This document shows positions 1 through 24,210 of a stretch of 64,000 nucleotides of DNA, in pieces; the stretch's first letter is position 1; each line of letters begins with the position of its first letter. The translations under genes and the position numbers were made by a program. Origin of the DNA: an uncultured Candidatus Nemicrothrix sp. (GTDB lineage Bacteria > Actinomycetota > Acidimicrobiia > Acidimicrobiales > MedAcidi-G1); NCBI GenBank assembly GCA_913055915.1, contig CAJXKL010000006.1:1-64000 (forward strand), given 5' to 3'. The notes under the pieces were generated by a model. The model was not told where the DNA came from and ran no database searches. It saw only the letters and a program-made list of their open reading frames with translations.

Positions 1-981
1 GCCCCCGACGCTCCAGCCACCACCAGCCCACCACCCACCACCGAGACCCTCGTGCCGTGGACCGGCGCCCACCACCCGCTCACCGGCCTGCCCGCCGTCA
101 ACGGCCTCAGCCGCCTACCGGCCCTGGCGGTCAAGATCGGCAACAACGACACCCGCTCGCTGCCACAGGTCGGCCTCGAAGCGGCCGACATCGTCTACGA
201 GGCCCACATCGAGAACAACGTCACCCGCTTCCTCGGCATCTACCAGAGCCAGCTCCCCGAAAGGATCGGCCTCGTGCGCTCGGCACGATCCACCGACATC
301 AACCTGATCGGGAACCTCAAGAACCCCTACTTCGCCTACTGGGGATCCAACGAGGGCGTCGGAGCCGAGGTCACGGCCGCCGAGAGCGTCGGAACCTTCG
401 TGGCACGCTCAACAAGTGGTGTCGGCCAGGAGAACTTCGTACGCGACGACGCCCGCGGCGCCTCGCCGTTCAACGGCTTCCTCAACGCCCAGGGCCTCAT
501 GGCTGCCGCCACCGGTACCGCACCCGACCCCGTATTCCAGTACGGCGACCTGCCCGCATCGGCGGTGCCGGCAGCCGGCGCACGATGGAGCACCCCCAAC
601 AGGCAGATCGACTACGTCTGGGACACAACCTCACGGCGCTGGCTGCGGTTCCAGGGAGGCGTACCCCAGCTCGACCAGAACGGCGTGCAGTTGGCAGCCG
701 ACAACGTGCTGTTCCTCTACGTCGACTACAAGGTCTCGGCCGCCGACTTCGACTCACCCCAGGCCGTCAGCACCGGAACCGGCGACGGTTGGCTGCTGCG
801 CGACGGCACCGTCACCGGGGTCGTCTGGGGACGTCCGTTCATCTCCCACGGCTGGCACCTCGCCGACGACGACACAGACGAGATCGTCGAGTTGGCGCCG
901 GGAACCACGTGGGTGGCACTTGCCAGGCTGGGCGAGGGCAAGGTCCTCGACCTCGCCGAGGCCACCGCAGTCACCGGCTGA
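1..981 (+). CDS. DUF3048 (YerB-like) protein, 5' end missing
   Basis: The frame is open from the first base, so the true start lies outside the window; 326 residues are visible. The first ~17 residues are a Pro/Thr-rich linker, as expected between a signal or lipoprotein segment and an extracellular domain. The rest matches the DUF3048 (YerB) family: 'PLTGLP' near the start, 'PALAVKIGNN', 'DIVYEAHIENNVTR', 'RIGLVRSARSTD' and the C-terminal 'GTTWVAL' barrel strand. The family is usually an exported or lipid-anchored protein of unknown biochemical role. A GTG at 52 could be read as a start but would fall inside the linker. Family assignment is fairly sure; function is not known. Confidence 0.8.
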   Translation, partial: APDAPATTSPPPTTETLVPWTGAHHPLTGLPAVNGLSRLPALAVKIGNNDTRSLPQVGLEAADIVYEAHIENNVTRFLGIYQSQLPERIGLVRSARSTDINLIGNLKNPYFAYWGSNEGVGAEVTAAESVGTFVARSTSGVGQENFVRDDARGASPFNGFLNAQGLMAAATGTAPDPVFQYGDLPASAVPAAGARWSTPNRQIDYVWDTTSRRWLRFQGGVPQLDQNGVQLAADNVLFLYVDYKVSAADFDSPQAVSTGTGDGWLLRDGTVTGVVWGRPFISHGWHLADDDTDEIVELAPGTTWVALARLGEGKVLDLAEATAVTG

Positions 982-1049
982 GCCGGGGCCGGTGGACAGC
1001 CGACCAACATCGGGGTCGCCCGACGGGGGAGGCCGGCCAAAGCCCCTCC

Positions 1050-1055
1050 TAGACT
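1050..1055 (+). promoter_or_regulatory. -10-like hexamer of pdxS (leaderless pattern)
   Basis: TAGACT ends 7 nt before the pdxS ATG, fitting an actinobacterial TANNNT -10 with transcription starting at or next to the start codon. No clear -35 is seen. Confidence 0.5.
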
Positions 1056-1062
1056 GCGTCCC

Positions 1063-1953
1063 ATGAGCGACATCACCCGATCAACGGGAACACAACTGGT
1101 CAAGCGGGGCCTGGCAGAGATGCTCAAGGGCGGCGTCGTAATGGACGTCGTGGACCCCGAACAGGCACGTATCGCCGAAGACGCCGGTGCAGTGGCGGTA
1201 ATGGCCCTTGAGCGCGTTCCATCCGATATCCGACGCGACGGAGGCGTGGCCCGAATGTCCGACCCCGAGATGATCGAGGGCATCAAGGCAGCGGTGACCA
1301 TTCCGGTCATGGCCAAGGCCCGCATCGGCCACTTCGCCGAAGCCCAGATCCTCCAGGCCCTCGGTGTCGACTACGTCGACGAGAGCGAGGTCCTCACGCC
1401 GGCCGACGAGGCCCACCACATCGACAAGTGGGCCTTCGACGTGCCGTTCGTGTGCGGCGCCACCAACCTCGGCGAGGCCCTGCGACGCATCTCAGAAGGC
1501 GCCTGCCTCATCCGCTCCAAGGGCGAAGCTGGCACCGGCAACATCGTCGAGGCCGTACGCCACCTGCGCTCGATCATGGGCGACATCGGGCGCATCACCA
1601 AGGCCGACTCGGCCGAACTCTTCGACTGGGCCAAGAGGCTCCAGTCGCCGCTCTCGCTGGTTCAGGAGATCGCCGAGACCGGCGAACTGCCCGTACCGAT
1701 GTTCTGCGCCGGCGGCATCGCCACACCGGCCGACGCCTCCCTCGTCATGCAGTTGGGTGCCCAGTCGGTCTTCGTGGGTTCCGGCATCTTCAAGAGCGAC
1801 GACCCGGCACCGCGTGCCAGGGCCATCGTCGAGGCCACCACCAACTTCACCGACCCTGTCATCCTGGGCAAGGTCAGCCGGGGCCTCGGTGCCGCCATGC
1901 CGGGCCTCGAGATCGACACCCTGGAGACCCGCCTGGCCGACCGCGGCTGGTAG
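1063..1953 (+). CDS. pdxS: Pyridoxal 5'-phosphate synthase, synthase subunit PdxS
   Basis: Builds PLP from ribose 5-phosphate, glyceraldehyde 3-phosphate and ammonia supplied by PdxT, in a 12+12 subunit complex. At 296 aa it has the family's normal length. Visible catalytic residues are Asp28 in 'GGVVMDVVD', Lys85 in '[10 protein letters not shown]' (equivalent to B. subtilis Lys81, which binds ribose 5-phosphate) and the second lysine in '[20 protein letters not shown]'. pdxT follows after 10 nt, so the two subunits are co-transcribed. The ATG is chosen because it sits 7 nt after a -10-like hexamer and gives the standard N-terminus. Confidence 0.97.
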
Positions 1954-1963
1954 CAGGCTTTCC

Positions 1964-2545
1964 ATGAAGGTCGGTGTCCTGGCCCTCCAGGGGGCGTTCA
2001 CCCGGCATGCCGCCGTGCTCACCGATGTGGGTGCGGCCCCCATCGAGGTGAGAACCCCCGAGCACCTCTCCGGTGTCGACGCGCTCGTGATGCCGGGCGG
2101 TGAGTCCACCACCATGTCGATGCTCCTCGACATCGCCGACCTGCGCCAACCGTTGGTCGAGCGCCTGGCCCACGGCCTCCCGGTATTTGGCACCTGTGCG
2201 GGAATGATCCTGCTGGCCTCGTCGGTCACCGACGGCCGCAGCGACCAGGAGCCCCTTGCGGCAATCGACATAGGCGTGAGGCGCAACGGCTACGGCCGCC
2301 AGATCGACTCCTTCGAGGCCGATGTAGACGTCGGCGGCGAGGGCCTCCCCGACTGGGACACACCGTTCCACGGGGTGTTCATCAGGGCGCCGGTGGTCGA
2401 ACGCGTGGGCGACGGAATCGAGGTTCTCGCCAGCGTCGACGACAGCCCGGTGCTCTGTCGCCAGGGCCACGTGATGGTGGCATCCTTCCACCCCGAACTG
2501 ACCGACGACCGGCGCATCCACGAACTCTTCGTGGAAGCAGTCTGA
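1964..2545 (+). CDS. pdxT: Pyridoxal 5'-phosphate synthase, glutaminase subunit PdxT
   Basis: Class I glutamine amidotransferase that hydrolyses glutamine and channels ammonia to PdxS. The 193-aa protein starts 'MKVGVLALQGAF' and has the nucleophile Cys78 in 'GTCAGM', the oxyanion segment 'MPGGEST', and His176/Glu178 in 'FHPELTDD'. The frame stays open upstream of the ATG, but that part overlaps pdxS and gives no PdxT homology, so the ATG is taken as the start. Ten nt separate it from pdxS. Confidence 0.97.
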   Translation: MKVGVLALQGAFTRHAAVLTDVGAAPIEVRTPEHLSGVDALVMPGGESTTMSMLLDIADLRQPLVERLAHGLPVFGTCAGMILLASSVTDGRSDQEPLAAIDIGVRRNGYGRQIDSFEADVDVGGEGLPDWDTPFHGVFIRAPVVERVGDGIEVLASVDDSPVLCRQGHVMVASFHPELTDDRRIHELFVEAV

Positions 2546-2570
2546 GGGACCGCAGGAACTAGGAGAACGC

Positions 2571-3323
2571 ATGTCGGGCCATTCCAAGTGGGCGACCATC
2601 AAGCACAAGAAGGGCGCCGCCGACCAGAAGCGCGCCAAGCTGTTCGCCAAACTCATCAAGCAGGTCGAGGTGGCCGCACGCCAGGGCGGCGGCGACCCCG
2701 ACGCCAACGCCACCCTGCGGACCATGTACCAAAAGGCCCGTGACTCCTCGGTGCCACTCGACACCATCGAGCGGGCCGTCAAGAGGGGCACCGGAGAACT
2801 GGAGGGCGTCAACTACGAGAGCATCACCTACGAGGGCTATGCGCCCCACGGTGTGGCCCTCTACGTCGAGACCCTCACCGACAACCGCAACCGCACCGGC
2901 TCCGAGGTGAGGTCGCTGCTCACCAAGAACGGCGGCTCCCTCGCCGAGCCGGGCTCGGTGGCCTGGCAGTTCGAACGCAAGGGCGTGGTGCTGCTGGCCG
3001 GCAGCGTCGACGAGGACGAGATCATGATGGCTACCCTCGACGCCGGCGCCGAGGACCTTGCCGACGATGGCGGCACGTGGCGCCTCACCTGCGAACCGAC
3101 CGACCTGCCCACGGTGCGTGCCGCACTCGAGGACGGGGAAGTCCCGTTCGAGTCGGCCGACGTGACCATGGTGCCAACCTCCACGGTCGCCGTCGACACC
3201 GTCGAGGCCGCCAAGGCGGTGCTTCGCCTGCTCGACCTGCTCGACGACAACGACGACGTGCAGGACGTGTTCGCCAACTTCGACATCCCGCCAGAGGTCT
3301 TCGACTCCCTCGACCTGGACTGA
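2571..3323 (+). CDS. YebC/TACO1-family protein (translation or transcription factor)
   Basis: A 250-aa protein with the invariant N-terminal signature 'MSGHSKWATIKHKKGAADQKRAKLFAKL' split over residues 1-28, followed by the three-domain YebC fold ('MYQKARDSSVPLDTIERAVKRGTGE', 'TDNRNRTGSEVR', 'GGSLAEPGSVAWQF'). The family was long annotated as transcriptional regulators; some members help ribosomes through polyproline stretches. The ATG follows an AGGAG ribosome binding site in 'aactaggagaacgcatg'. In actinobacteria yebC typically lies between pdxT and ruvC, exactly as here. Confidence 0.95.
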   Translation: MSGHSKWATIKHKKGAADQKRAKLFAKLIKQVEVAARQGGGDPDANATLRTMYQKARDSSVPLDTIERAVKRGTGELEGVNYESITYEGYAPHGVALYVETLTDNRNRTGSEVRSLLTKNGGSLAEPGSVAWQFERKGVVLLAGSVDEDEIMMATLDAGAEDLADDGGTWRLTCEPTDLPTVRAALEDGEVPFESADVTMVPTSTVAVDTVEAAKAVLRLLDLLDDNDDVQDVFANFDIPPEVFDSLDLD

Positions 3324-3369
3324 GTTCCTCGACCGCAGGGGGTGGCGCTGCCCGGGCGGGAGCAACCGC

Positions 3370-3375
3370 TAGAGT
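3370..3375 (+). promoter_or_regulatory. -10-like hexamer of ruvC (leaderless pattern)
   Basis: TAGAGT ends 7 nt before the ruvC ATG. Its position supports this ATG over in-frame upstream codons that overlap yebC. Confidence 0.5.
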
Positions 3376-3382
3376 CGTACAT

Positions 3383-3919
3383 ATGTTCGTTCTGGGGATA
3401 GATCCCGGCCTCTCACGCTGCGGCTACGGCCTGGTACGCCGCCACGGCAGGCGCCAGCGCGCCGAGGCCGCAGGGGTCATACGAACCGATCCGGCCACGC
3501 CGCTACCGCTGCGCCTGGCCGAACTCCAGGCCGAGGTCCGCGACCTCATTACCGAGTACCAGCCGGACCACGTCGCCATCGAACGCGTCCTCTTCCAGGT
3601 CAACGTGAGCACCGCCATGCAGACCGGTCAGGCATCAGGAGTGGTCATGGCCGAAGCGGCCTCAGCCGGCTGCCAGGTAACCCTCTACTCGCCCAACGAG
3701 GTCAAGTCGGCCGTGGCTGGATGGGGAGGCGCCGACAAGGGTCAGATGGCCCAGATGGTCGAGACCCTCCTCGGCATCGACGTTCCTCTCCGGCCCGTCG
3801 ACGCCGCCGACGCCGTAGCCGTGGCCCTCTGCCATCTGGCAGTGGTGCCGGGATCAACAGTGTCCAGGGCCGGCCGGTCAGGAGCCGACCTGCCCAGGGA
3901 AGGGGCGGTGTCCCAGTGA
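3383..3919 (+). CDS. ruvC: Holliday junction resolvase RuvC
   Basis: RNase H-fold endonuclease that cuts Holliday junctions in the RuvABC resolvasome. The 178-aa protein has the four acidic catalytic residues: Asp7 in 'GIDPGLSRCG', Glu67 in 'IERVLF', and Asp140/Asp143 in 'VDAADAVAVALCH'. The reading frame extends far upstream but only this ATG gives the family N-terminus. Its stop overlaps the GTG start of ruvA (GTGA), so RuvC and RuvA are translationally coupled. Confidence 0.96.
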   Translation: MFVLGIDPGLSRCGYGLVRRHGRRQRAEAAGVIRTDPATPLPLRLAELQAEVRDLITEYQPDHVAIERVLFQVNVSTAMQTGQASGVVMAEAASAGCQVTLYSPNEVKSAVAGWGGADKGQMAQMVETLLGIDVPLRPVDAADAVAVALCHLAVVPGSTVSRAGRSGADLPREGAVSQ

Positions 3920-4518
3920 TCGGATCGCTTCGCGGGCAACTGCTCGAACGCTTCGAGGTCGGCGGCCGCGGCGAGGTGCTGGTCGAGGTCGCAGGCATCG
4001 GATACCGCGTCATCGTCACCCCCACGACAGCCGTTCGAATGGGCGAGCCCGACTCCCGGGTCTTCCTGCACGTCCACCACCACATCCGCGAGGCCGACCA
4101 GATCCTCTACGGCTTCCTCGAGCGCTCCGAGCGCACCTGCTTCGAGGCCCTGCTCTCAGCACACGGGGTGGGACCGTCCCTGGCCCTGGCGGTACTCGGC
4201 GTGCACGGTCCCACAGAGTTGGCACGGGTCCTCGCCGACGACGACGTCGCCGCCCTGTGCCTCGTGCCCGGCGTCGGCAAGAAGACTGCAACCCGTCTCC
4301 TCGTCGAGCTGAAGGCATCCCTCGACCTCCCCATCGACACCGTGCCCATCGACCCCGCCGACGCAACCGCACCCCGCTCGGCACTCGTCGAGGTGCAGGA
4401 GGCCCTCGGCGGTCTCGGCTACACCCCCGACGAGGTGCGGTCCGTGCTGAGCGACCTCGGCGGCGACGACCCGGGTGTCATCCTGCGCGAGGCCCTGCAG
4501 CGGCTGGCCCGGGCCTAG
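3916..4518 (+). CDS. ruvA: Holliday junction branch migration protein RuvA
   Basis: DNA-binding tetramer that holds the junction for the RuvB motor. The 200-aa protein has the N-terminal OB-fold (residues 1 to ~65, '[10 protein letters not shown]'), two helix-hairpin-helix motifs ('[17 protein letters not shown]' and '[18 protein letters not shown]') and the C-terminal three-helix domain that binds RuvB ('[19 protein letters not shown]'). The GTG start overlaps the ruvC stop in a GTGA tetranucleotide. Confidence 0.96.
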
Positions 4519-7753: not shown

Positions 7754-7788
7754 CCACCGATTGGGTCAGAATCCGCCTGCGACGGCCG

Positions 7789-7794
7789 TAGGCT
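7789..7794 (+). promoter_or_regulatory. Possible -10 element of the yajC-secDF unit
   Basis: TAGGCT lies 78 nt before the yajC ATG in the 119-nt gap after tgt, so yajC, unlike many genes here, may carry a leader of ~70 nt. A GAGG ribosome binding site precedes the yajC ATG. Confidence 0.3.
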
Positions 7795-7872
7795 CTACCG
7801 GTCCCGCTACGGGCGCCCGCTACCGCCAACGGCTGCCGAGCGCCGGCAACCCACCCAGATACGAGGCACCAA

Positions 7873-8187
7873 ATGGCCCAGTTCCTGCCCCTCATCCTGA
7901 TCTTCGGACTCATGTACTTCCTCATGATCCGCCCCCAGCAGAAGAAGGCACGCTCCCAGCAGAACCTCGTTGCCTCCGTCCAGGCGGGCGACGAGGTGCG
8001 CCTCCACTCGGGCCTCTTTGGTGTAGTCAGCGAGGTCGAGGGCGACATCATCTGGCTCGAGGTTGCCGAGAACATCGAACTGAAGGTTCTGCGCAGCGCA
8101 GTGGAGCACCGCTTCAACGAACCGGTTGTGCAGGAAACCGAAGAAGAAGTCGTCGAAGAGGCCGACGAGGGCCCCATCTCTGACTGA
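7873..8187 (+). CDS. yajC: Preprotein translocase subunit YajC
   Basis: Small single-pass membrane protein that associates with SecDF and YidC. The 104-aa protein has one N-terminal membrane segment (about residues 4-20, 'FLPLILIFGLMYFLMI') followed by the classical 'RPQQKK', the 'SVQAGDEVRLHSGLFGVV' beta domain and an acidic tail. It is followed by secD and secF as in most bacteria. Confidence 0.95.
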   Translation: MAQFLPLILIFGLMYFLMIRPQQKKARSQQNLVASVQAGDEVRLHSGLFGVVSEVEGDIIWLEVAENIELKVLRSAVEHRFNEPVVQETEEEVVEEADEGPISD

Positions 8188-8226
8188 CCGCAGCCCCTCC
8201 GAACAACCACAACCACACCTGTCTCC

Positions 8227-9708
8227 ATGCCCCGCCGACAGAGCGTCTACCTCGTCGCAATCGTCCTCGTTGCCGTGACGGCGTCAATCCTGACGGCCTT
8301 CTGGCAGAACAAGCCCCTCCTAGGCCTCGACCTCCAGGGTGGTGTGTCGGTGCGCCTGACGGCCACCGAATCGGCCACCGAGGAAATGCTCGACCAGGCC
8401 GTTGAGATCATCCGCAAACGGGTCGACGCCCTCGGCGTCGCCGAACCCGAGGTGTCCCGGACAGCCGAGGGCGTAATGGTCTCCCTCCCCGGGGTCGACA
8501 ACCAACAGCGTGCCCTGGAGCTGGTCGGCACCACCGCTGAACTGCGCTTCAGGCCCGTCTGCGACGTTCTTCCCCTCATGCCGGCCGACCTTGCGAGAGA
8601 GGGTGTGGCACGGCCAGCACCGGCCTCGTGTGAACCGCTGCTTGCCGGTGACCTCACCGCCTCAACCGGCCCACTCGGGGTGACCCTCCCCGAGGACGAC
8701 CTGGCCGACCAGTTCGTCGTGCTTGGCGGGCGCGACGACAACCAGCGTTACCTGCTGGCACCGAGCGTCCTCACCGGCGATGCTCTCGAGGACGCCAACG
8801 CCGACATGATCGAGTTCGAATGGCAGGTGGCGGTGGCCCTCAAGGCCGGAGCCGTAGGTATCGACGCCTTCAACGAAATGGCGGCGCTCTGCTTCGTGGG
8901 TGCCCCCACGTGCCCGATCCTGCCCGGCTTCACCAACGGCCGCCTGGCCCTGGTGCTCGACGGCGAGGTCCTGACGGCACCACAGATCAGGGCGCCCGAG
9001 TTCCAGCGTGACCGCATCCTCATCTCGGGGGCCTTCGACAAGGAAGAAGCCGACGTTGTGGCCCTGGGCCTCCGGTACGGTGCCCTCCCCATCGAACTCG
9101 AGGCAGAAAACACCCAGGTCGTCTCGGCCACCATCGGCGAGGACTCCCTCCACGCAGGCATCGTGGCCGGGCTCATCGGCCTGATGATCGTGGGCCTGTT
9201 CATCGTCGGCTACTACCGACTGCTGGGCCTGGTGGCCCTGGCCAGCCTGGTGATCTCCGGCAGCCTGCTCTGGGCGATCATCGCCCACCTGGGCACCCAG
9301 TCGGGCCTGGCACTCACCCTCGCCGGCGTTACCGGAATCATCGTGGCCATCGGCGTCTCGGTCGACTCCAACGTCGTCTACTTCGAACACCTCAAAGAGG
9401 ACATCCGCGACGGCCGCACTGCCAGGTCCTCTGTGGACAAGGCGTTCCCCGTGGCCTTCTCCACGATCGTCAAGGCCGACATGGCGTCGCTCATCGGAGC
9501 GGGCCTGCTGTGGTGGCTCACGGTCGGCGCCGTAAGGGGCTTCGCCCTGTACCTGGGTCTGGCCACCCTGTTGGACCTCGTAGCCACGTACTTTTTCATG
9601 GGGCCCATGGTGCGCCTCATGGCCCAGTCCCGGTGGTTCGCAGAGCACCCGGAGCGCTTCGGCCTGCCGGCCAGCGGAGCGGTCAGCGCAGTCGGGAGGA
9701 CCACCTGA
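8227..9708 (+). CDS. secD: Protein translocase subunit SecD
   Basis: RND-type membrane protein that, with SecF, uses the proton gradient to pull exported proteins through SecYEG. The 493-aa protein has an N-terminal membrane helix (residues ~8-27), the 'LGLDLQGGVSVRL' motif, a large extracytoplasmic part and about five membrane helices in the last third ('AGLIGLMIVGLFIVGYYRLLG' onwards, with 'GVSVDSNVVYFEHLKEDI'). The stop overlaps the secF start (TGATG). Confidence 0.95.
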   Translation: MPRRQSVYLVAIVLVAVTASILTAFWQNKPLLGLDLQGGVSVRLTATESATEEMLDQAVEIIRKRVDALGVAEPEVSRTAEGVMVSLPGVDNQQRALELVGTTAELRFRPVCDVLPLMPADLAREGVARPAPASCEPLLAGDLTASTGPLGVTLPEDDLADQFVVLGGRDDNQRYLLAPSVLTGDALEDANADMIEFEWQVAVALKAGAVGIDAFNEMAALCFVGAPTCPILPGFTNGRLALVLDGEVLTAPQIRAPEFQRDRILISGAFDKEEADVVALGLRYGALPIELEAENTQVVSATIGEDSLHAGIVAGLIGLMIVGLFIVGYYRLLGLVALASLVISGSLLWAIIAHLGTQSGLALTLAGVTGIIVAIGVSVDSNVVYFEHLKEDIRDGRTARSSVDKAFPVAFSTIVKADMASLIGAGLLWWLTVGAVRGFALYLGLATLLDLVATYFFMGPMVRLMAQSRWFAEHPERFGLPASGAVSAVGRTT

Positions 9709-10817
9709 TGGGCCTGCTCAGAGGCGTTTTCAACAGCGAGACAGTGCTCGACTACCCGCGCTGGTGGCGCAGGGCGGTGACGGTGTCGCTGGTGGCGATA
9801 GTGCTCAGCATCGGCTCGTTCGGTGTCCGGGGCCTGAACCTCGGCATCGACTTCGAGGGTGGAACCACCTTTGAGGTCATGGCGCCCGGTATCTCGGTAG
9901 CCGACGCACGCGAGGTGATGGCCAGCATCGGTTCCGAGGACTCACGCATCCAGACGGTCGACGGCGACGTCATCCGGATCCGCTCCGAGGTGTCTGACCC
10001 GGCGCATGCCGCCGAAATCCGCAACCTACTCGAAGCCCAACTGGGAACAGTCCAGACGTTCGAACAGGTCGGGCCCACATGGGGCGCCGAGGTGACATCA
10101 AAGGCTGCCAACGCCCTGGTCGTGTTCTTCGCCGTGGTGGCCCTGTACATAACAGTTCGCCTTGAGTGGAAGATGGCCCTCGGGGCCCTCGCAGCGGTAG
10201 CCCACGACATCGTGGTCAGCGTCGGCCTCTACTCGATCCTTCAGCTGGAGATCACACCCTCGACCGTCATCGCATTCCTCACGATCATGGGCTACTCGCT
10301 CTACGACACGATCGTGGTCTACGACAAGGTCCGCGAGGTGACCGGACGCCTCGGCGCCACCGAGCGCTACACCTACACCGAACTCATGAACCTGGCGCTC
10401 AACCGGGTCACCATGCGCTCGATCAACACCAGCATCACCTCGGCAATCCCCGTCGTGTCGCTGCTGCTGATCGGATCGGTGATCATGGGAGCCACGGCCC
10501 TCCAGGAGTTCGGCATCGCCCTGCTGATCGGTATCATCGTCGGCTCCTACTCGTCGCTGTTCCTCGCATCCACACTCGTCACGGTGCTGAAGGAGCGCGA
10601 GGAGCGCTGGCAACAGGTGGCCGACAAGGTCGCGCAGCGCACCGGTGTTACCGACGAGGGCACCACACGCCTCATCGGTCGCGAAGAGGCCGCCCTGCCC
10701 GACACCCGTTCAACCGAGCGTCCCGGTGCCGCCAAGGGCCCGGCACGGCGCCGGCCCGTGGCAACAACCCACCTGGCTGGTGGCGTGCCACCCCGTCCCA
10801 GGAAGAAGCGTCGCTGA
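9708..10817 (+). CDS. secF: Protein translocase subunit SecF
   Basis: Partner of SecD in the SecDF export motor. The 369-aa protein has a first membrane helix followed by 'GLNLGIDFEGGTTFEV', then five more helices with 'TIMGYSLYDTIVVYDKVRE' and 'NTSITSAIPVVSLLLIGS'. A basic, Pro-rich cytoplasmic tail ends 'PPRPRKKRR'. The ATG shares bases with the secD stop. In many actinobacteria an apt gene follows secF before rel; none is present here. Confidence 0.95.
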   Translation: MGLLRGVFNSETVLDYPRWWRRAVTVSLVAIVLSIGSFGVRGLNLGIDFEGGTTFEVMAPGISVADAREVMASIGSEDSRIQTVDGDVIRIRSEVSDPAHAAEIRNLLEAQLGTVQTFEQVGPTWGAEVTSKAANALVVFFAVVALYITVRLEWKMALGALAAVAHDIVVSVGLYSILQLEITPSTVIAFLTIMGYSLYDTIVVYDKVREVTGRLGATERYTYTELMNLALNRVTMRSINTSITSAIPVVSLLLIGSVIMGATALQEFGIALLIGIIVGSYSSLFLASTLVTVLKEREERWQQVADKVAQRTGVTDEGTTRLIGREEAALPDTRSTERPGAAKGPARRRPVATTHLAGGVPPRPRKKRR

Positions 10818-10827
10818 GCCAGCCCGC

Positions 10828-10833
10828 TACCGT
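10828..10833 (+). promoter_or_regulatory. -10-like hexamer upstream of the rel mini-ORF
   Basis: TACCGT ends 6 nt before an ATG at 10840 that opens a 29-codon reading frame ahead of rel. The spacing is the same as for the leaderless genes elsewhere in the window. Confidence 0.35.
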
Positions 10834-10839
10834 GGTGTG

Positions 10840-10929
10840 ATGACCGACAGGGTCCGCCACGGAAACCTGAACAGGCAGTGCGCCAGGCTGCCTGCCCGTG
10901 GAACCGCGTCGACCGGACACAGGGCCTGA
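10840..10929 (+). CDS. Candidate 29-aa leaderless mini-ORF before rel
   Basis: A short frame starting 'MTDRVRHGN' and ending 'TASTGHRA' fills almost the whole gap between secF and rel. It begins 6 nt after a -10-like TACCGT and ends with TGA only one nucleotide before the rel ATG at 10931. I recognise no homology. It is Arg/His-rich and has no hydrophobic segment. It might be a leader peptide whose translation feeds ribosomes onto rel, or just an accidental frame; the evidence is positional only. Confidence 0.3.
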   Translation: MTDRVRHGNLNRQCARLPARGTASTGHRA

Positions 10930-10930
10930 C

Positions 10931-13150
10931 ATGGTCGCCGTCACGCGGGTACTCCCATGGCGCCGCCGGCCCGATCCGAGCGTCGAGGAGACCTCGGATC
11001 TGCTCACCACCTTCCACGACCACCACCCCAGGGCCGACACCTCCCTCATCGAACGTGCCTACGAGGTGGCCCTGGGCGCCCACGTGGGACAGACCCGCAA
11101 ATCGGGTGAGCCCTACATCCACCATCCGATGGCCGTGGCCACGATCGTGGCCCGACAGGGTCTAGACGACGTGACCGTCGCAGCAGCACTGCTGCACGAC
11201 GCCGTCGAGGACACGTCCATCGACCTGGTCGACCTGGAACGCGTCTTCGGGGCAGACGTCTCGCTCATTGTCGACGGCGTCACCAAACTGGACCGTCTTT
11301 ACTTCGACTCCCGCGAGGAACAACAGGCAGCCAGCATGCGCAAGATGCTCGTGGCCCTCGCCAAGGACCTGCGGGTGCTCATCATCAAGTTGGCCGACCG
11401 ACTCCACAACATGCGCACCCTGGCCGCCCTGCCCGAAGACAAGCAGCAGCGCATTGCACGAGAGACCCTCGACATCTACGCACCGCTCGCCAACCGCCTC
11501 GGCATGCAGGAGGTCAAGGACCAACTCGAGGACCTCTCGCTCGCCACGCTCCACCCGAAGCGCTACAGCCAGATCGACCAGATGGTCCAGGACCGGTCGC
11601 CCGAGCGTGATAACTACGTGACCCAGCTCATCGGCGACATCGAAAGGCGCATGTCCGACCTGAACATCACGGCAGAGGTCCACGGCCGACCAAAGCACCT
11701 CTGGAGCATCTACGAGAAGATGATCGTGAAGGGCCGGCCCTTCGACGATATCTACGACCTCATCGGCGTTCGCGTGATCGTCGAGAACGTCCGCGACTGC
11801 TACGCGGTGCTGGGTTCCATCCACTCCACCTGGAAGCCGGTTCACGGCCGCTTCAAGGACTACGTGGCCATGCCCAAGTTCAACCTCTACCAGTCGCTGC
11901 ACACCACGGTCATCGGGCCGCTCGGAAAGCAGGTCGAGTTCCAGATCCGGACGAGGGAGATGCACCAGCGTGCCGAGCACGGGGTGGCCGCCCATTTCGA
12001 CTACAAGACCAGCTCGCCTTCAGACGACATGGCGTGGCTGGGACGAATCGTGGAGTGGCAGGAGGAGACCTCCGACCCCGGCACCTTCATGGCCAACCTC
12101 AAGACCGACCTGGAACAGGACGAGGTGTACGTCTTCACCCCGAGGGGAGGCGTGATCACTCTGCCGATAGGTGCCACACCGGTGGACTTCGCATACATGG
12201 TCCACACCGAGGTCGGCCACAAGTGCGTAGGGGCAAGGGTCGAGGGGCGCCTCGTTCCGCTCGAGACCCGCCTCAATTCGGGTGACACGGTCGAGATCGT
12301 CACCTCGAAACAGGAGGGCGCAGGCCCCAGCCGTGACTGGCTCAAGTTCGTAGCCACACACAAGGCCTCCAACAAGATCAAACAGTGGTACTCACGAGAG
12401 CGTCGCCACGACGCCATCGACAGCGGCTACGACGACCTGGTCAGCGAGCTGCGACGTGCCGGCATGCCGGTAAAGGAGTTCCTGGCCGGCCAACCCCTGG
12501 CCGACGTGGCTGCCGCAATGAACTACGCCGATGCCGACACCCTCTACGCCGCCATAGGTGAACACCACGTCTCGGCAAAGGCCGTGGTCGGCAGGGTGAA
12601 ACGGGCCATCAGCGCCGAACAGGAGGACGACGAGCAGCTGCCCGCCACCGTGTTGCGTCCCTCCACGGCCCAGAGACCCAGCGGCTCGGCCGGGGTACAC
12701 GTGGAGGGCCTTAACGACATGATGGTGAGGCTGTCGCGCTGTTGCACGCCGGTGCCACCAGACGAGATCATCGGCTTCGTCACGCGGGGTCGCGGCGTGT
12801 CCGTCCATCGCAGCGACTGCGCCAACGCAGCGTCGCTCTCCGAGGGGCAACCCGACAGGCTCATCGAGGTCGAGTGGGACGGTTCTGCATCCGGGAGCTT
12901 CCTGGCCACCATCGAGGTCAAGGCCCTCGACCGGCCGGGGCTGCTCCGTGACATCGTGAACGTGCTTGCCGACCACCACATCAACGTTGTCGGAACCGAC
13001 ACGGTCACCAGCGGAGCGGAGCGCACCGCCAAGATGAAGTTCGACTTCGAGATGGGCCACGCCGCGCACCTCGAGCCCCTACTGCACATCATCGCCGAGA
13101 TCGACTCCGTGTACGACGTCTACAGGGTGGTGCCCGGCCAGGGCTCCTGA
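10931..13150 (+). CDS. rel: Bifunctional (p)ppGpp synthetase/hydrolase Rel
   Basis: Stringent-response enzyme that makes and degrades (p)ppGpp. In the 739-aa protein: HD hydrolase domain (residues ~40-190, with His51, His65 and the key His89-Asp90...Glu93-Asp94 in 'LLHDAVEDT'), synthetase domain with the RxKD motif Arg307-Phe-Lys-Asp310 that marks bifunctional Rel enzymes, TGS domain (~397-460), a zinc-finger-like 'RLSRCCTPVPPDEIIGFVTRG' region and a C-terminal ACT domain (from ~656). A GTG at 10898 would add 11 residues; the ATG is preferred because it fits the domain start and follows the mini-ORF stop. Confidence 0.95.
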   Translation: MVAVTRVLPWRRRPDPSVEETSDLLTTFHDHHPRADTSLIERAYEVALGAHVGQTRKSGEPYIHHPMAVATIVARQGLDDVTVAAALLHDAVEDTSIDLVDLERVFGADVSLIVDGVTKLDRLYFDSREEQQAASMRKMLVALAKDLRVLIIKLADRLHNMRTLAALPEDKQQRIARETLDIYAPLANRLGMQEVKDQLEDLSLATLHPKRYSQIDQMVQDRSPERDNYVTQLIGDIERRMSDLNITAEVHGRPKHLWSIYEKMIVKGRPFDDIYDLIGVRVIVENVRDCYAVLGSIHSTWKPVHGRFKDYVAMPKFNLYQSLHTTVIGPLGKQVEFQIRTREMHQRAEHGVAAHFDYKTSSPSDDMAWLGRIVEWQEETSDPGTFMANLKTDLEQDEVYVFTPRGGVITLPIGATPVDFAYMVHTEVGHKCVGARVEGRLVPLETRLNSGDTVEIVTSKQEGAGPSRDWLKFVATHKASNKIKQWYSRERRHDAIDSGYDDLVSELRRAGMPVKEFLAGQPLADVAAAMNYADADTLYAAIGEHHVSAKAVVGRVKRAISAEQEDDEQLPATVLRPSTAQRPSGSAGVHVEGLNDMMVRLSRCCTPVPPDEIIGFVTRGRGVSVHRSDCANAASLSEGQPDRLIEVEWDGSASGSFLATIEVKALDRPGLLRDIVNVLADHHINVVGTDTVTSGAERTAKMKFDFEMGHAAHLEPLLHIIAEIDSVYDVYRVVPGQGS

Positions 13151-13192
13151 GGACCTGTTCGGTTATTGCCTGCCGGTGACCTCGGGGGCCGG

Positions 13193-13198
13193 TAGCCT
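13193..13198 (+). promoter_or_regulatory. -10-like hexamer of hisS (leaderless pattern)
   Basis: TAGCCT ends 8 nt before the hisS GTG; only a run of T and C lies between, with no Shine-Dalgarno sequence. Confidence 0.5.
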
Positions 13199-13206
13199 TT
13201 CCCCCC

Positions 13207-14466
13207 GTGGCAGACCCCATCTACAGGGCGCCGAAGGGCACACACGACGTCCTCTGGCCTGAATCGGCGCGCCGTCGCGCCCTGGTTGGCGTGTTCGCCG
13301 ACATTGTCGAGGCCGCCGGTTATACCGAGGTCGTGCCGCCGATGTTCGAACACGTCGAGGTCTTCCGGCGCCTGGGCGACGCCACCGACGTCGTCCGCAA
13401 GGAGATGTACGAGTTCGAGGACCGCGGTGGCCGCCACATCGCCCTGCGACCCGAGCAGACGGCATCGATCGTGCGCTCCTTTGGCGAGCATCGCCCGACC
13501 CTGCCGTGGAAGGCCTGGTACGCAGGCCCCAACTTCCGCTACGAGCGGGCCCAGAAGGGTCGCTTCCGCCAGTTCGACCAGGTCGGCATCGAGGCCCTCG
13601 GCCCCGAGGACCCACACCTGGATGCCGAGGTGATCACCACGGCATGGCGCTTCTACGAGTGCCTGGGCCTGCGGAAGGTAACCCTGCTGGTCAACTCCCT
13701 GGGTGGCCCCGACGACCGGGCCCGCTACGTCGCTGCACTCCACGACCACTTCTCCACCGACAGGGATGCCCTCAGCGAGGACTCAAGGGCCACGCTTGCG
13801 ACAAACCCGCTGCGGGTGCTCGACTCCAACCGGCCCGAGGACGCCGACCTGATCGCCTCGGCCCCCAGCATGCTGGACCACCTGTCCGACGAGGCCGGCA
13901 CCCACTTCGATCAGGTGAAGGCGGCACTGACCGGCCTTGAGATCCCCTTCACCATCGAGCCGCGCCTGGTGCGTGGCCTCGACTACTACGTGCGAACCAC
14001 CTTTGAGTTCACCTCTGAGACGTTCGACGCAGCCCAGAACGCCATCGGCGGGGGAGGCCGCTACGACGGCCTCGCCGAGGCAATGGGTGCACCACCGACA
14101 CCCGGCGTGGGCTTCGCCCTCGGTGTCGACCGCACCCTCATGGTGTGCGACGCAGAGGGTGCCTTTGAGGCTCCCGACGCGCCGGTGGACGTGTTCGTGG
14201 TCGACACCACGGGCGGCGAAGCGGCCCTGTTGATCACCGACGAACTGCGACGCGCCGGCATACGCGCCGACCGTTCCTGGGACGACCGCTCAATGAAGGC
14301 CCAGATGCGTGCCGCCGACCGCAGTGGTGCCGCCATGGCGGTAATAGTTGGAGAAACCGAACGGGAATCGGGCACCCTGATCCTCCGCGACCTTCGCGGC
14401 GACGCCGGCCAGGAGTCGGTCCCGTGCACTTCCATCACAGACATCCTGCTAGCGAGGCTCAAGTGA
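13207..14466 (+). CDS. hisS: Histidine--tRNA ligase
   Basis: Class II aminoacyl-tRNA synthetase, 419 aa. Motif 1 region 'PMFEHVEVFRRLGDATD', motif 2 'FRYERAQKGRFRQFDQVGIE', the histidine-specific 'LVRGLDYYVRTTFEF' and 'GGGRYDGL', motif 3 'GVGFALGVDR', then the C-terminal anticodon-binding domain. The GTG start is supported by the -10-like hexamer just upstream. Its stop lies within a GTGA shared with the probable aspS start. Confidence 0.96.
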   Translation: MADPIYRAPKGTHDVLWPESARRRALVGVFADIVEAAGYTEVVPPMFEHVEVFRRLGDATDVVRKEMYEFEDRGGRHIALRPEQTASIVRSFGEHRPTLPWKAWYAGPNFRYERAQKGRFRQFDQVGIEALGPEDPHLDAEVITTAWRFYECLGLRKVTLLVNSLGGPDDRARYVAALHDHFSTDRDALSEDSRATLATNPLRVLDSNRPEDADLIASAPSMLDHLSDEAGTHFDQVKAALTGLEIPFTIEPRLVRGLDYYVRTTFEFTSETFDAAQNAIGGGGRYDGLAEAMGAPPTPGVGFALGVDRTLMVCDAEGAFEAPDAPVDVFVVDTTGGEAALLITDELRRAGIRADRSWDDRSMKAQMRAADRSGAAMAVIVGETERESGTLILRDLRGDAGQESVPCTSITDILLARLK

Positions 14467-16235
14467 CAAGCAGTACCGAAGACAACGGCGGGCAAGGCCC
14501 CGATTACACGACGTCCATGCGAACCGACCGCTGCGGCGACCTCCGCAGCGACGACGTCGGTCGCCAGGTCACCCTGTGTGGTTGGGTGGCACGCCGCCGT
14601 GAGCACGGCGAGCACCTGGCCTTTGTGGACCTCCGCGATCGCAGCGGCATCATCCAGGTGGTTGTCGATGGCGCCGCCGACCTGCGATCCGAGTATGTGC
14701 TCCAGGTGACCGGCCAGGTCAGGGAACGACCGGCCGACACCGCCAATGACGCCCTCTCCACAGGAGCCATCGAGGTTGACGCCTCCGAGGTGACCATCCT
14801 CTCGGCGTCAGAGCCGCCGCCGTTCCCGCTCGACGAACGCACCGATGTCGACGAGGTCCTCAGGCTCCGCCACCGCTACGTCGACCTTCGCCGGCCGCGC
14901 CTCCAGAAGAACCTCGAGGTCAGGGCAACGGTCAACAGCGCCGTGCGGACCGCCATGGAGGAACAGGGCTTCATCGAGGTCGAGACGCCGATGCTGGTTG
15001 CCAGCACGCCCGAGGGTGCACGCGACTTCGTGGTTCCCTCACGCAAGGAGCCGGGCTCGTTCTACGCCCTGCCCCAGAGCCCCCAGATCTTCAAACAGCT
15101 CTGCATGATCGGCGGCGTCGACCGCTACTACCAGATTGCCCGCTGCCTTCGCGACGAGGACCTCAGGGCCGACCGCCAGTTCGAGTTCATGCAACTCGAC
15201 GCCGAGGCCAGTTTCGTGAGCCAGGACGACGTGCTCACCTTCATCACCCACACGGTCGCATCGGCCGCCGAGGCAGTCACCGGTGAGAGGCCGGCTGACT
15301 TCCCCCGCATGTCGTGGCACGAGGCCAGGGAGCGCTACGGCTCCGACAAGCCCGACATCCGCTTCGGAATGGAACTCGTCGAGTTGACTCCCGTGTTCGC
15401 CGATACCGACTTCCGTGCCTTCCAGGCTCCGTGTGTCAAGGGCATCCGGGTTCCCGGAGGGGCCGATCTGTCACGCAATCGCCTCGACGACCTGACCGAG
15501 ACATGCAAGGGCTGGGGCGCCAAGGGCCTTGTCTGGATGAAGGTAGAGGCCGACGGCCTCAACTCGCCGGTAGCCAAGTTCCTCACCGGCGACGAACAGG
15601 CGGCGTTGCGCACCACGCTCGAAGCCGAAGAGGGCGACCTGTTGCTGCTGGTGGCCGATGAGCACCACACAACGTGTCGCATCCTGGGCCTGCTGCGCCT
15701 GGAACTGGGACGCCCACCGGTCACCGAGGGAGGCCTCCACTTCCTGTGGGTCGTCGACTTTCCCCTCTTCGAGGGGCTCGACGAGGCAGGCAACCCGATG
15801 CCGGCCCACCACCCGTTCACCATGCCCCATGAAGACGACCTCGAGACACTTGAGGCCGGCGACCTCCTGTCGGTCCGCTCACAGGCCTATGACCTGGTCC
15901 TGAACGGCTGGGAACTTGGCTCAGGCAGCGTGCGGATCCACCGGCGCGAGATCCAGCAGAAGATCTTCTCCATCCTGGGCATCGGCGCCGACGAGGCCCA
16001 GGAACGGTTTGGCTTCCTGCTGGACGCCTTCAGGTACGGCGCACCGCCGCACGCCGGGTTCGCCTTCGGCATGGACCGCCTCATCGCGATCCTGGCCGGC
16101 GAGGAGAACATCCGCGAGGTCATCGCCTACCCCAAGACCCAGTCGGGCGCCGACCCGCTCACCAGCGCACCCACACCGATCGACGACCGCCACCTCGAGG
16201 AGTTGGGCCTGCGGGTCCTCCCCAGAAGCGAGTAG
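14463..16235 (+). CDS. aspS: Aspartate--tRNA ligase
   Basis: Class II synthetase, 590 aa with this start: OB-fold anticodon domain ('VTLCGWVARRREHGEHLAFVDLRDRSGIIQVV'), catalytic motifs including 'FYALPQSPQIFKQ', 'YYQIARCLRDEDLRADRQFEF' and motif 3 'GFAFGMDRLIAILAG', with the bacterial GAD insertion between. Two starts are possible: GTG at 14463, which overlaps the hisS stop as GTGA and has GAGG upstream, or ATG at 14517, which gives the more usual 'MRTDRCGDL' N-terminus but lacks a ribosome binding site. Whether it also charges tRNA-Asn cannot be told from the sequence alone. Confidence 0.94.
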   Translation: MTSSTEDNGGQGPDYTTSMRTDRCGDLRSDDVGRQVTLCGWVARRREHGEHLAFVDLRDRSGIIQVVVDGAADLRSEYVLQVTGQVRERPADTANDALSTGAIEVDASEVTILSASEPPPFPLDERTDVDEVLRLRHRYVDLRRPRLQKNLEVRATVNSAVRTAMEEQGFIEVETPMLVASTPEGARDFVVPSRKEPGSFYALPQSPQIFKQLCMIGGVDRYYQIARCLRDEDLRADRQFEFMQLDAEASFVSQDDVLTFITHTVASAAEAVTGERPADFPRMSWHEARERYGSDKPDIRFGMELVELTPVFADTDFRAFQAPCVKGIRVPGGADLSRNRLDDLTETCKGWGAKGLVWMKVEADGLNSPVAKFLTGDEQAALRTTLEAEEGDLLLLVADEHHTTCRILGLLRLELGRPPVTEGGLHFLWVVDFPLFEGLDEAGNPMPAHHPFTMPHEDDLETLEAGDLLSVRSQAYDLVLNGWELGSGSVRIHRREIQQKIFSILGIGADEAQERFGFLLDAFRYGAPPHAGFAFGMDRLIAILAGEENIREVIAYPKTQSGADPLTSAPTPIDDRHLEELGLRVLPRSE

Positions 16236-20978: not shown

Positions 20979-22291
20979 GCGACGAAACCCCCGACATGCC
21001 GGAAGGGACCGGTGATGACTATCCCGACCTGCACTCCAAACCTGAGTTCTCAGAGACCCGACCCATCGACCAGGTGGTCGCCTGGGAGGCCGACCAGTCC
21101 GGCCAGGAGCCCGACGAGGAGATCCTCACAGAGCAACCCCTTCCGACCGACGAGCCCAGCCCCGACGTCACCTGGGTACGCCACCGGCCACTGCTGGGAC
21201 CCATTCCAAGGTGGGGAGGGGTGCTTGCCGTGGTGCTGTTCGGAGCGGCCGTCGCGTTCGGTGGCTTCCGCGGCTGGGTAGACAACCAGCTTCGACCCAG
21301 CGCACCACCCGGCGACGAGGTGGAGTTGACCATCCTGGAAGGCTGGTCAACCAATGACGTAGCGGTGGCGCTCGGCGACTCCGGCGTAATCGACCACCCT
21401 GCGATGTTCCGCCAGTGGATGCGGTGCCCCTCTGGACTGCAGTGGCTCATCGACTGCCCGGCCGGCATCGAGTACTCGTTCCAGGCAGGCGACTACGTGC
21501 TCCAGGAACACCTCTCCTTTGATGACACCGTTGCGCTTCTCGAAGAGGGTCCCCTGCCCGAAGAGGTCGTCCGCATCACGGTCCCCGAGGGCCTGACCCT
21601 GAACCAGATGGTGAACCGTGTGGTCCGCAGGATGCCCACCTTCGACGAGGCCCAGATGCGTGCGGCCCTCGCCAGCGACCGCCTCATCTGGGAGCACTAC
21701 CCCGGCGAACTGCCGTTCCTCCTTGTCGAGGGCCTCCTGTTCCCTGACACATACCAGCTTGACGACGCGACGATCACCGACGAGTTGGGCCTGCTCGTCC
21801 GCATGCACAACCAGTTCCTGGCGGTTGTGGAGGAACTCGACCTTGAGGAGCGCTCAGTGGAACTGGGCCTCACCCCCTACGACGCGGTCATCCTGGCCTC
21901 ACTCATCGAAGAGGAGGCCCTGCTCGACGGCGACCGGGCCAAGATAAGCCGGGTCATCCACAACAGGTTGAACATGGGATGGACTCTCGGCATCGACGCC
22001 AGCACCCGCTACGCCGTGGCCAAGACCGCTGGCGAGCCCCTCACCGCAGAGGACCTGGACACCAAGTCCATGTGGAACACGAGGGTCGTGGCAGGCCTTC
22101 CGCCCACACCCATCGCAGCCCCCGGTCGCTCCTCCCTCGAGGCCGCCCTGGCCCCGGCAGACGGCTCCTGGCTCTACTACGTGCGTACCGACGAGAACGA
22201 CGTTGTGGGAGCACACACCTTCGCCGAGACAGCAGACGAATTCGAGGATGCGCGCCGGGTATGTGTAGAAAAGGACCTTGGCTGTGGCTGA
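20975..22291 (+). CDS. mltG: Endolytic murein transglycosylase MltG (YceG-like)
   Basis: Membrane-anchored lytic transglycosylase that cuts nascent peptidoglycan strands. The 438-aa protein has an acidic cytoplasmic N-terminus (~70 residues), a membrane helix ('VLAVVLFGAAVAFGGFRGWV'), a LysM-like stretch and the YceG domain. The conserved catalytic glutamate lies in 'ASLIEEEA' (around residues 308-315), followed by 'ISRVIHNRLNMGWTLGIDAS' and 'GLPPTPIAAPGRSSLEAAL'. Coupled to ruvX by an ATGA overlap and overlapping aroE by 8 nt. Confidence 0.93.
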   Translation: MSDETPDMPEGTGDDYPDLHSKPEFSETRPIDQVVAWEADQSGQEPDEEILTEQPLPTDEPSPDVTWVRHRPLLGPIPRWGGVLAVVLFGAAVAFGGFRGWVDNQLRPSAPPGDEVELTILEGWSTNDVAVALGDSGVIDHPAMFRQWMRCPSGLQWLIDCPAGIEYSFQAGDYVLQEHLSFDDTVALLEEGPLPEEVVRITVPEGLTLNQMVNRVVRRMPTFDEAQMRAALASDRLIWEHYPGELPFLLVEGLLFPDTYQLDDATITDELGLLVRMHNQFLAVVEELDLEERSVELGLTPYDAVILASLIEEEALLDGDRAKISRVIHNRLNMGWTLGIDASTRYAVAKTAGEPLTAEDLDTKSMWNTRVVAGLPPTPIAAPGRSSLEAALAPADGSWLYYVRTDENDVVGAHTFAETADEFEDARRVCVEKDLGCG

Positions 22292-23132
22292 GACGCGACG
22301 GTCCGGAAGCCGAATGGCGGCGGTGATCGGTTCACCGGTCGCGCACTCGCTGTCTCCGGTGATCATGAACGCAGCCTTCGCGGCAGCCGACCTGGACTGG
22401 ACGTTCATCGCACACGAGGTAGCCGAGGGAGACACCGCACGGGCGCTCGACTGGGCCCGCAGCGAGAACCTCGTGGGCCTCTCTGTGACTATGCCCCACA
22501 AGGCGGCCGTTGCCGTAGCGGTCGATGAGTTGAGCGACGTTGCCGGGCGCCTCAACGCTGTGAACTGTGTGGTTCTCGACGGCGGGTGCCTCTTTGGCCA
22601 CAACACCGATGGTGGCGGGTTCATCGACGGCCTCGCCCACGATGCCGGCTTCGGCCCCGCAGGCTGCAGGGCCGTCGTTCTCGGAGCGGGTGGCGCAGCC
22701 AGGGCCGTCGTCCACGCCCTGGGTGTTGCCGGAGCATCAGATGTGGCTGTGGTCAACCGGACACCAACCGGGGCGGAGGTGGCCGCCGGCCTCGCCGACG
22801 GGGTCGGGCGGGTCGCCGACACCGATGCGGTGGCAGGCGCCGACCTGGTTGTCAACGCGACACCGATCGGCATGGGCGAAGGTGGTTCCGCGATGCCCGT
22901 CGACCCCGACCTCCTGTACCCGGGCCAGGTCGCCGTCGACCTCATCTACCACCCCCTCGCCACACCCTGGGTGGTGGCACTCCGCGAACGCGGTGTCGAG
23001 GCCCACGGAGGCCTCTCGATGCTCATCTTCCAGGCTGCGCTGGCCTTCACCCACTGGACGGGTGGGGAGGCGCCGGTGGCGGCCATGGAACAGGCTGCAC
23101 GGGTCGAGCTGGCTGCCCGCACAGCCAGCTGA
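22284..23132 (+). CDS. aroE: Shikimate dehydrogenase
   Basis: Reduces 3-dehydroshikimate to shikimate with NADPH. The 282-aa protein shows 'VIGSPVAHSLSPVIMNAAF' (shikimate site), Lys73 in 'VTMPHK', Asp109 in 'GHNTDGGGF', the nucleotide-binding 'GAGGAARAVVHAL' and the 'NRT' cofactor motif. The GTG start is chosen because an AAGGA ribosome binding site lies about 8 nt upstream; TTG at 22278 and ATG at 22314 are alternatives. It overlaps the end of mltG. Confidence 0.94.
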   Translation: MAETRRSGSRMAAVIGSPVAHSLSPVIMNAAFAAADLDWTFIAHEVAEGDTARALDWARSENLVGLSVTMPHKAAVAVAVDELSDVAGRLNAVNCVVLDGGCLFGHNTDGGGFIDGLAHDAGFGPAGCRAVVLGAGGAARAVVHALGVAGASDVAVVNRTPTGAEVAAGLADGVGRVADTDAVAGADLVVNATPIGMGEGGSAMPVDPDLLYPGQVAVDLIYHPLATPWVVALRERGVEAHGGLSMLIFQAALAFTHWTGGEAPVAAMEQAARVELAARTAS

Positions 23133-23148
23133 ACCCCCTGCGGTTCCC

Positions 23149-23614
23149 ATGGATCCGGCGCCAGCCGTGGCCCTTGTCTGGATGGTGGCCTGGCTCGTGG
23201 CCCTCTCGGCTGTGGACCTGCGCAGCCGACGCCTACCGGACCCAATGGTCGCCCCCTCCCGGCAGGTCTCATAGTCCTCGACGCCGCCACTGCGCTCTCA
23301 GGTGGACGTCCTGAGAGCCTGCTGTGGGCCTGCGCCGGTGCCCTCTCATACGGCGGCCTACTGCTCATGGTCAAGGTGCTTGCGCCATCAGGCCTCGGCG
23401 GCGACGTGAAGCTGGCTGCCCCCTGGGATGGCAGATCGGCTTCGCCGGAGGAACCGGGTTCCCCACCGCGGTCCTCACGGCGCTCCTGATGACCTGTCTG
23501 TCCGCCCTGGTGTGGCAGGTGATGGGACGCCTTCGGGGGCACCGGTGGCCTCAGACGCTGGCCTTCGGTCCGTGGCTTGGAGCTGCAGCCGTCCTCGTTG
23601 TTTCGATCCCATGA
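23149..23614 (+). pseudogene. Prepilin peptidase (A24 family) broken by two -1 frameshifts
   Basis: Three frames join into one good A24 peptidase core of ~155 aa. Frame 1 from ATG 23149 gives 'ALSAVDLRSRRLPDPMVAP' with the first catalytic Asp; it must shift at the C5 tract 23252-23256. The next frame gives 'LLWACAGALSYGGLLLMVK' and 'GLGGDVKLAAP' with the second Asp; it must shift again at the C5 tract 23419-23423. The last frame gives 'GWQIGFAGGTGFPTAVL' to the TGA. Each break is one missing C in an identical GCCCCCT. In actinobacteria a short leader peptidase gene sits at this place between aroE and the other aro genes. True pseudogene, homopolymer error or recoding are all possible. Confidence 0.75.
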
Positions 23615-23655: not shown

Positions 23656-23661
23656 GTCGTG

Positions 23662-24210
23662 ATGGCAATCGACCACGACGGCCCCGGCGGGCCCCACCTT
23701 GCGCTGGTGGGTCTCATGGGAGCCGGAAAGAGCGACGTGGGCGCAGCTGTGGCTCAGCGTCGGAACCTCCGCCACCTGGACCTCGACGTGCTGGTGACCG
23801 GCCGCGAGGGCCGCTCAGTGGGCGTGCTGTTCGAGGAACAGGGCGAGTCCGGCTTTCGGGACTGCGAGCAGGCAGCGCTGGCAGATGTGCTGTCGCTGGT
23901 GCAACCCGTCGTGTTGTCAACCGGTGGCGGCGTCCTCGAACGCCGACCCAACAGGGAACTCCTGTCCGAGCGGGCAACGGTCATCTGGTTGAGAGCCCGG
24001 CCGGAGACACTCGCCGACCGGGTCGGTGACGGTATTGGCAGGCCCCTCCTCCAGGCAGGCAACCCGGCCGAGGTGCTCACCGAACTGTCGTCCCTGCGTG
24101 GCCCCGACTACGAGGCCGCAGCCGACCACGTGGTTGACACCGACGACATGACCGTCGACGAGGTGGCCGATACCGTTGCAGCCGCGTTGCCCGACCCGGT
24201 GACCACATGA
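23662..24210 (+). CDS. aroK: Shikimate kinase
   Basis: Phosphorylates shikimate with ATP. The 182-aa protein has the P-loop 'GLMGAGKSDVG' (residues 17-27), the shikimate-binding 'DLDVLV', 'GESGFRDCEQAAL' and 'VLSTGGGVLERRPNRELL', and the lid region 'DGIGRPLL'. Its stop overlaps the aroB start (ATGA). In many actinobacteria aroC precedes aroK; here the space before it is taken by the broken peptidase gene only. Confidence 0.95.
   Translation: MAIDHDGPGGPHLALVGLMGAGKSDVGAAVAQRRNLRHLDLDVLVTGREGRSVGVLFEEQGESGFRDCEQAALADVLSLVQPVVLSTGGGVLERRPNRELLSERATVIWLRARPETLADRVGDGIGRPLLQAGNPAEVLTELSSLRGPDYEAAADHVVDTDDMTVDEVADTVAAALPDPVTT

Follow-up and report, generated by a model that had tools for sequence, protein, structure and literature searches.

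Two frameshifts and a lost catalytic codon in an actinobacterial prepilin peptidase gene point to a recent pseudogene in a genome without a Tad pilus

Prepilin peptidases of the A24 family carry GxGD as their catalytic signature. TadE, encoded together with tadA, tadB and tadC at the Tad pilus locus, bears an N-terminal segment of the type cleaved by these enzymes. When one gene is lost, selection on its partners may relax, a course described as domino-like gene loss in an earlier study (PMC6027505). The locus reported here is like that case in that decay of a peptidase accompanies loss of the machinery it served, and unlike it in its host, an endosymbiont there and an actinobacterium here. 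As a pseudogene, it is a fresh example of an already known phenomenon. Free-living UBA5794 actinobacteria with type IV and Tad genes appear in another report (PMC12008989), which is context and not evidence for the conclusions drawn here.

The window, by which we mean the whole 64-kb stretch of DNA that was analysed, comes from genome G000, a 2.10-Mb draft in 41 contigs with a completeness of 93.66. At 23149-23614 on its plus strand lies an A24 prepilin peptidase spread over three frames with a -1 step at each join, sitting between aroE and aroK as the intact genes of genus-mates do. The features are as follows.

22278-23132, plus strand: aroE, the intact upstream neighbour; a single one-frame tblastn match in all four genus-mates compared.
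23149-23274, plus strand: first peptidase piece, with a start codon and the first catalytic Asp within VDLRSRRLPD, ending at TAG.
23251-23257, plus strand: break 1, GCCCCCT; one base short against four genus-mates, none of which has a C6 run there.
23256-23427, plus strand: second peptidase piece, in a different frame, with the second catalytic Asp.
23391-23405, plus strand: damaged catalytic motif, GLGGD against GLGGGD in genus-mates; one codon is lost and GxGD is no longer read.
23418-23424, plus strand: break 2, GCCCCCT; one base short against four genus-mates.
23423-23614, plus strand: third peptidase piece, in the third frame, with the C-terminal membrane part and a stop codon.
23659-24210, plus strand: aroK, the intact downstream neighbour; a single one-frame match in all four genus-mates, one of them cut by a contig end.
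24207-25208, plus strand: aroB, intact, with a G7 run at 24486; one frame against genus-mates.

An earlier sequence-only reading of this DNA had reported the same coordinates and frames, the two GCCCCCT sites at 23251 and 23418, 167 nt apart, and the G7 run in aroB, and all of these were confirmed. It had also held that joining the frames restores a complete A24 peptidase, and this stands in part. The 155-residue joined reading does match Pfam PF01478 (Peptidase_A24; E 3.5e-9, 37.5 bits, cut-off 26.5), and both Asp residues are readable in it, yet LGGD replaces GxGD, since a whole codon of the motif is missing. None of the three separate pieces reaches the curated cut-off in the same profile comparison, the first piece alone giving E 0.0072; no single open frame spans the domain in the window copy, and a profile search of G000 returned no PF01478 match at E 1e-3. 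What the copy shares with peptidases of the PilD/TadV type is the joined match, the two Asp residues and the position between aroE and aroK; it differs in being divided among three frames and in having GxGD one codon short. It is unlikely that a functional enzyme is produced from the pieces.

Comparison with relatives shows what the window copy has lost. With the joined protein as query, the peptidase was found in one open frame in five of six genus-mates (G006 at 80% identity, G001 and G003 at 79%, G004 at 72% and G005 at 53%), and the sixth, G002, gave no match. The same breaks, which the sequence-only reading had proposed to look for in related genomes, were seen in none of these six. At the DNA level, alignment with four genus-mate records (L031, UBA7884; L032, ARS1426; L033, SI037; L034, NIOZ-UU72) shows three gaps in the window copy, two of a single base and one of three bases, the last of these removing a glycine codon (GLGGDVK against GLGGGDVK). 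The breaks had been described as the loss of one C from a C tract: each site is indeed one base short, but C6 runs are lacking at both breaks in all four aligned genus-mates, whose intact genes are also free of GCCCCCT. The twin motifs are thus private to the broken copy, and may be products of the deletions themselves; the heptanucleotide occurs three times on the plus strand and once on the minus strand of the 64 kb. The sequence-only reading had named intact genes in relatives, without conserved C5 tracts, as the mark of simple decay, and the aligned records show this, save for L033, where an unbroken frame includes a C5 run at site 2. Across a wider set, reading of the peptidase matches finds GxGD kept in 27 of 29 relatives, the two exceptions being G034, which lacks the Asp, and G043, which reads MAFGD.

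The machinery that the peptidase would serve is also gone. The sequence-only reading had proposed a search for type IV pilus or tad genes elsewhere in the genome: no match to PF00437 (ATPase), PF00482 (TadB/C) or PF07811 (TadE) was found in G000 at E 1e-3, and tadA, tadB, tadC and the N-terminus of tadE are deleted on contig C5. PF04964 (Flp_Fap) likewise had no match in G000, nor did the 15 genomes of the family that were searched give one, even where they bear Tad, and this weakens the case for pilus loss, as the profile picked out no pilin gene; with these four profiles, no pilus or secretion machinery with pilin-like substrates was found in G000. The Tad locus of G003, G004 and G006 holds one ATPase together with two PF00482 domains, flanked on one side by NAD synthase, sigma-70 and HAD genes and on the other by a 115-aa gene, HATPase, NhaA and topoisomerase genes. 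When the G006 region (L054:3172-18266) is aligned to C5 of G000, its two matching blocks, query 1-4035 and 7781-15095, overlap by 8 bases where they meet; the overlap, CAGGTCGG, occurs in G006 at both ends of the stretch absent from G000. This stretch of about 3.75 kb carries tadA, tadB, tadC and the start of tadE, and whereas the three genus-mates keep the locus, the window's genome keeps only the last 93 of 192 TadE residues. Because both flanks lie within one contig, the absence is not an assembly gap, and assembly incompleteness is ruled out as its cause. The Tad deletions of G000 (L067, G000:C5:76000-92000) and G001 (L058, G001:C15) are different and non-nested, in two species of one genus, and lie at 8- and 7-base direct repeats, respectively, so that Tad loss is recurrent. 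G005 likewise has flank matches without a Tad block, the Tad flanks of G002 lie 140 bases apart, and in G022 and G030, both of another genus (g4), the matching flanks share a contig but have no Tad block between them.

Taken together with the intact orthologues at the same place, relative to which the window copy is disabled, and with the damage to the catalytic motif, the Tad deletion leads us to hold with high confidence that the gene is a recent pseudogene of a tadV/pilD-type A24 prepilin peptidase that followed pilus loss, as the sequence-only reading had offered among its options. Most likely it is an ordinary relic and not a new mode of gene reading. We suggest that the Tad pilus was deleted first, which would have left the peptidase without a substrate, that selection on the peptidase then lapsed, and that small deletions built up. 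Full excision would be the following stage, and G002 offers a view of it: its aroE-aroK gap is 28 bases and the counterpart of window positions 23137-23603 is absent, so the peptidase gene has been excised there. Within one genus we can thus lay out a series, from Tad with an intact peptidase (G003, G004, G006), through Tad deleted with the peptidase intact (G001, G005) and Tad deleted with the peptidase broken (G000), to both gone (G002). The relic calls for no new biology; it is of modest value, as a single step in this natural series.

Across the family, we scored 37 genomes (G000-G036) as Tad-bearing when they had a PF00437 match over the cut-off; G023, with a match under it, was scored as Tad-less. 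Ten genomes were positive (G003, G004, G006, G007, G009, G010, G012, G014, G018 and G026), and in every one the peptidase is free of stops and has GxGD. The 27 Tad-less genomes have an intact peptidase in three cases (G001, G005, G030), a damaged one in three and none in 21. The damaged copies are those of G000 (two frameshifts and a lost codon), G022 (an in-frame TAG) and G034 (catalytic Asp lost). Parallel cases to the window thus include G022, where Tad is deleted and a TAG interrupts the peptidase, G034, where there is no Tad ATPase and the Asp is lost, and G002, where Tad is deleted and the peptidase excised. The association between Tad and an intact peptidase gives a Fisher P of 8e-7 over all 37 genomes, 0.0014 among the 20 genomes at least 90% complete and 0.036 among the 16 genomes that still have peptidase sequence, all uncorrected for relatedness and incompleteness. 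G001, G005 and G030, in which the peptidase is intact although Tad is lacking, count against decay after pilus loss. They also bear on its order: from these three, and from the lack of any Tad-bearing genome whose peptidase is broken, we infer that Tad loss came before peptidase decay.

Of our results, the pattern of substitutions is the chief one that fails to favour the pseudogene reading. The dN/dS of the peptidase is 0.21-0.24 between the window and genus-mates, and 0.25-0.38 among intact copies; for the window against relatives, aroE gives 0.15-0.17, aroK 0.13-0.21 and aroB 0.19-0.20. Relaxed selection is therefore not visible in the peptidase substitutions between window and genus-mates, which means either that the death of the gene is recent or that the gaps are errors. 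In the latter case one or both one-base gaps would be artefacts of assembly or consensus and the frame would be open in the living cell. G000 is a 41-contig draft, both gaps fall within C-rich stretches, and the substitutions look constrained, all of which suit such an error; we nevertheless consider it improbable, if the most serious of the alternatives. It leaves two independent signs of decay unexplained, namely the Tad deletion and the codon missing from GxGD; the genus-mates lack C6 at both sites, and so give no hint of a longer C run that was simply under-called; and no further broken gene was found in the 64 kb, although the stretch contains 18 C or G runs six or seven bases long. That last point agrees with the earlier observation that the other genes of the window are intact, and comes from a tblastn scan with ORF tiling. 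Genus-mate ORFs searched against the window and its flank gave flags for 8 of 69 (G004) and 14 of 66 (G006), and the same scan flagged 4 of 17 and 4 of 15 ORFs on contig C5. Two of the places flagged in the window and flank, when aligned, proved to be spacers between genes; the remaining flags there, the peptidase aside, were judged collectively, by tiling of coding ORFs, to be read-ins from upstream or shadow ORFs, either antisense or out of frame. Homopolymer under-calling as a simple cause is rejected on these grounds, namely relatives without C6 and a single broken gene found in the window.

The sequence-only reading had also raised slippage-dependent expression, in which a -1 slip of the ribosome on CCC at each of the two sites would yield the joined peptidase. 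The same -1 step and the same heptanucleotide at both joins make the idea understandable, but we find it very hard to credit. GCCCCCT occurs in none of the four intact genus-mate genes, the contexts read C GCC CCC and T GCC CCC with no in-frame X XXY YYZ heptamer, two serial steps would give little product, and the Tad machinery that the product might serve is deleted. The missing codon weighs further, as even a twice-frameshifted product would be without GxGD. Conserved programmed -1 frameshifting is rejected, with relatives encoding the peptidase in one frame and the motif in none of four, and our search found no literature linking programmed frameshifting with a prepilin peptidase. What is left is a version in which two serial single-tRNA slips on CCC would make a little joined peptidase whose shortened motif is still active and acts on a substrate other than Tad, a combination to which we assign almost no probability. 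A frameshifting mechanism is unnecessary to account for this locus. Retention of one or more pieces for a new role, for which one could cite the low dN/dS and the third piece, an open frame of 96 codons from GTG, is just as far-fetched, since the constraint is accounted for by the gene's past as an intact gene and no comparable stand-alone piece appears among the relatives' peptidase matches.

Some other peptidase copies in the family are also of note. Intact peptidases with GxGD persist in Tad-less genomes at G030:C13:49984-50421 and G001:C65:6958-7419. In another genus of the family, the copy of G022 (L009, G022:C37:49318-49764, minus strand) has a single in-frame TAG and forms an independent parallel to the window. 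The copy of G034 (L010, G034:C6:50424-50843, minus strand) keeps an open frame in a genome with no Tad ATPase, and its catalytic GGGD now reads GGGG; judging from this substitution, it is probably a dead enzyme although its frame is unbroken.
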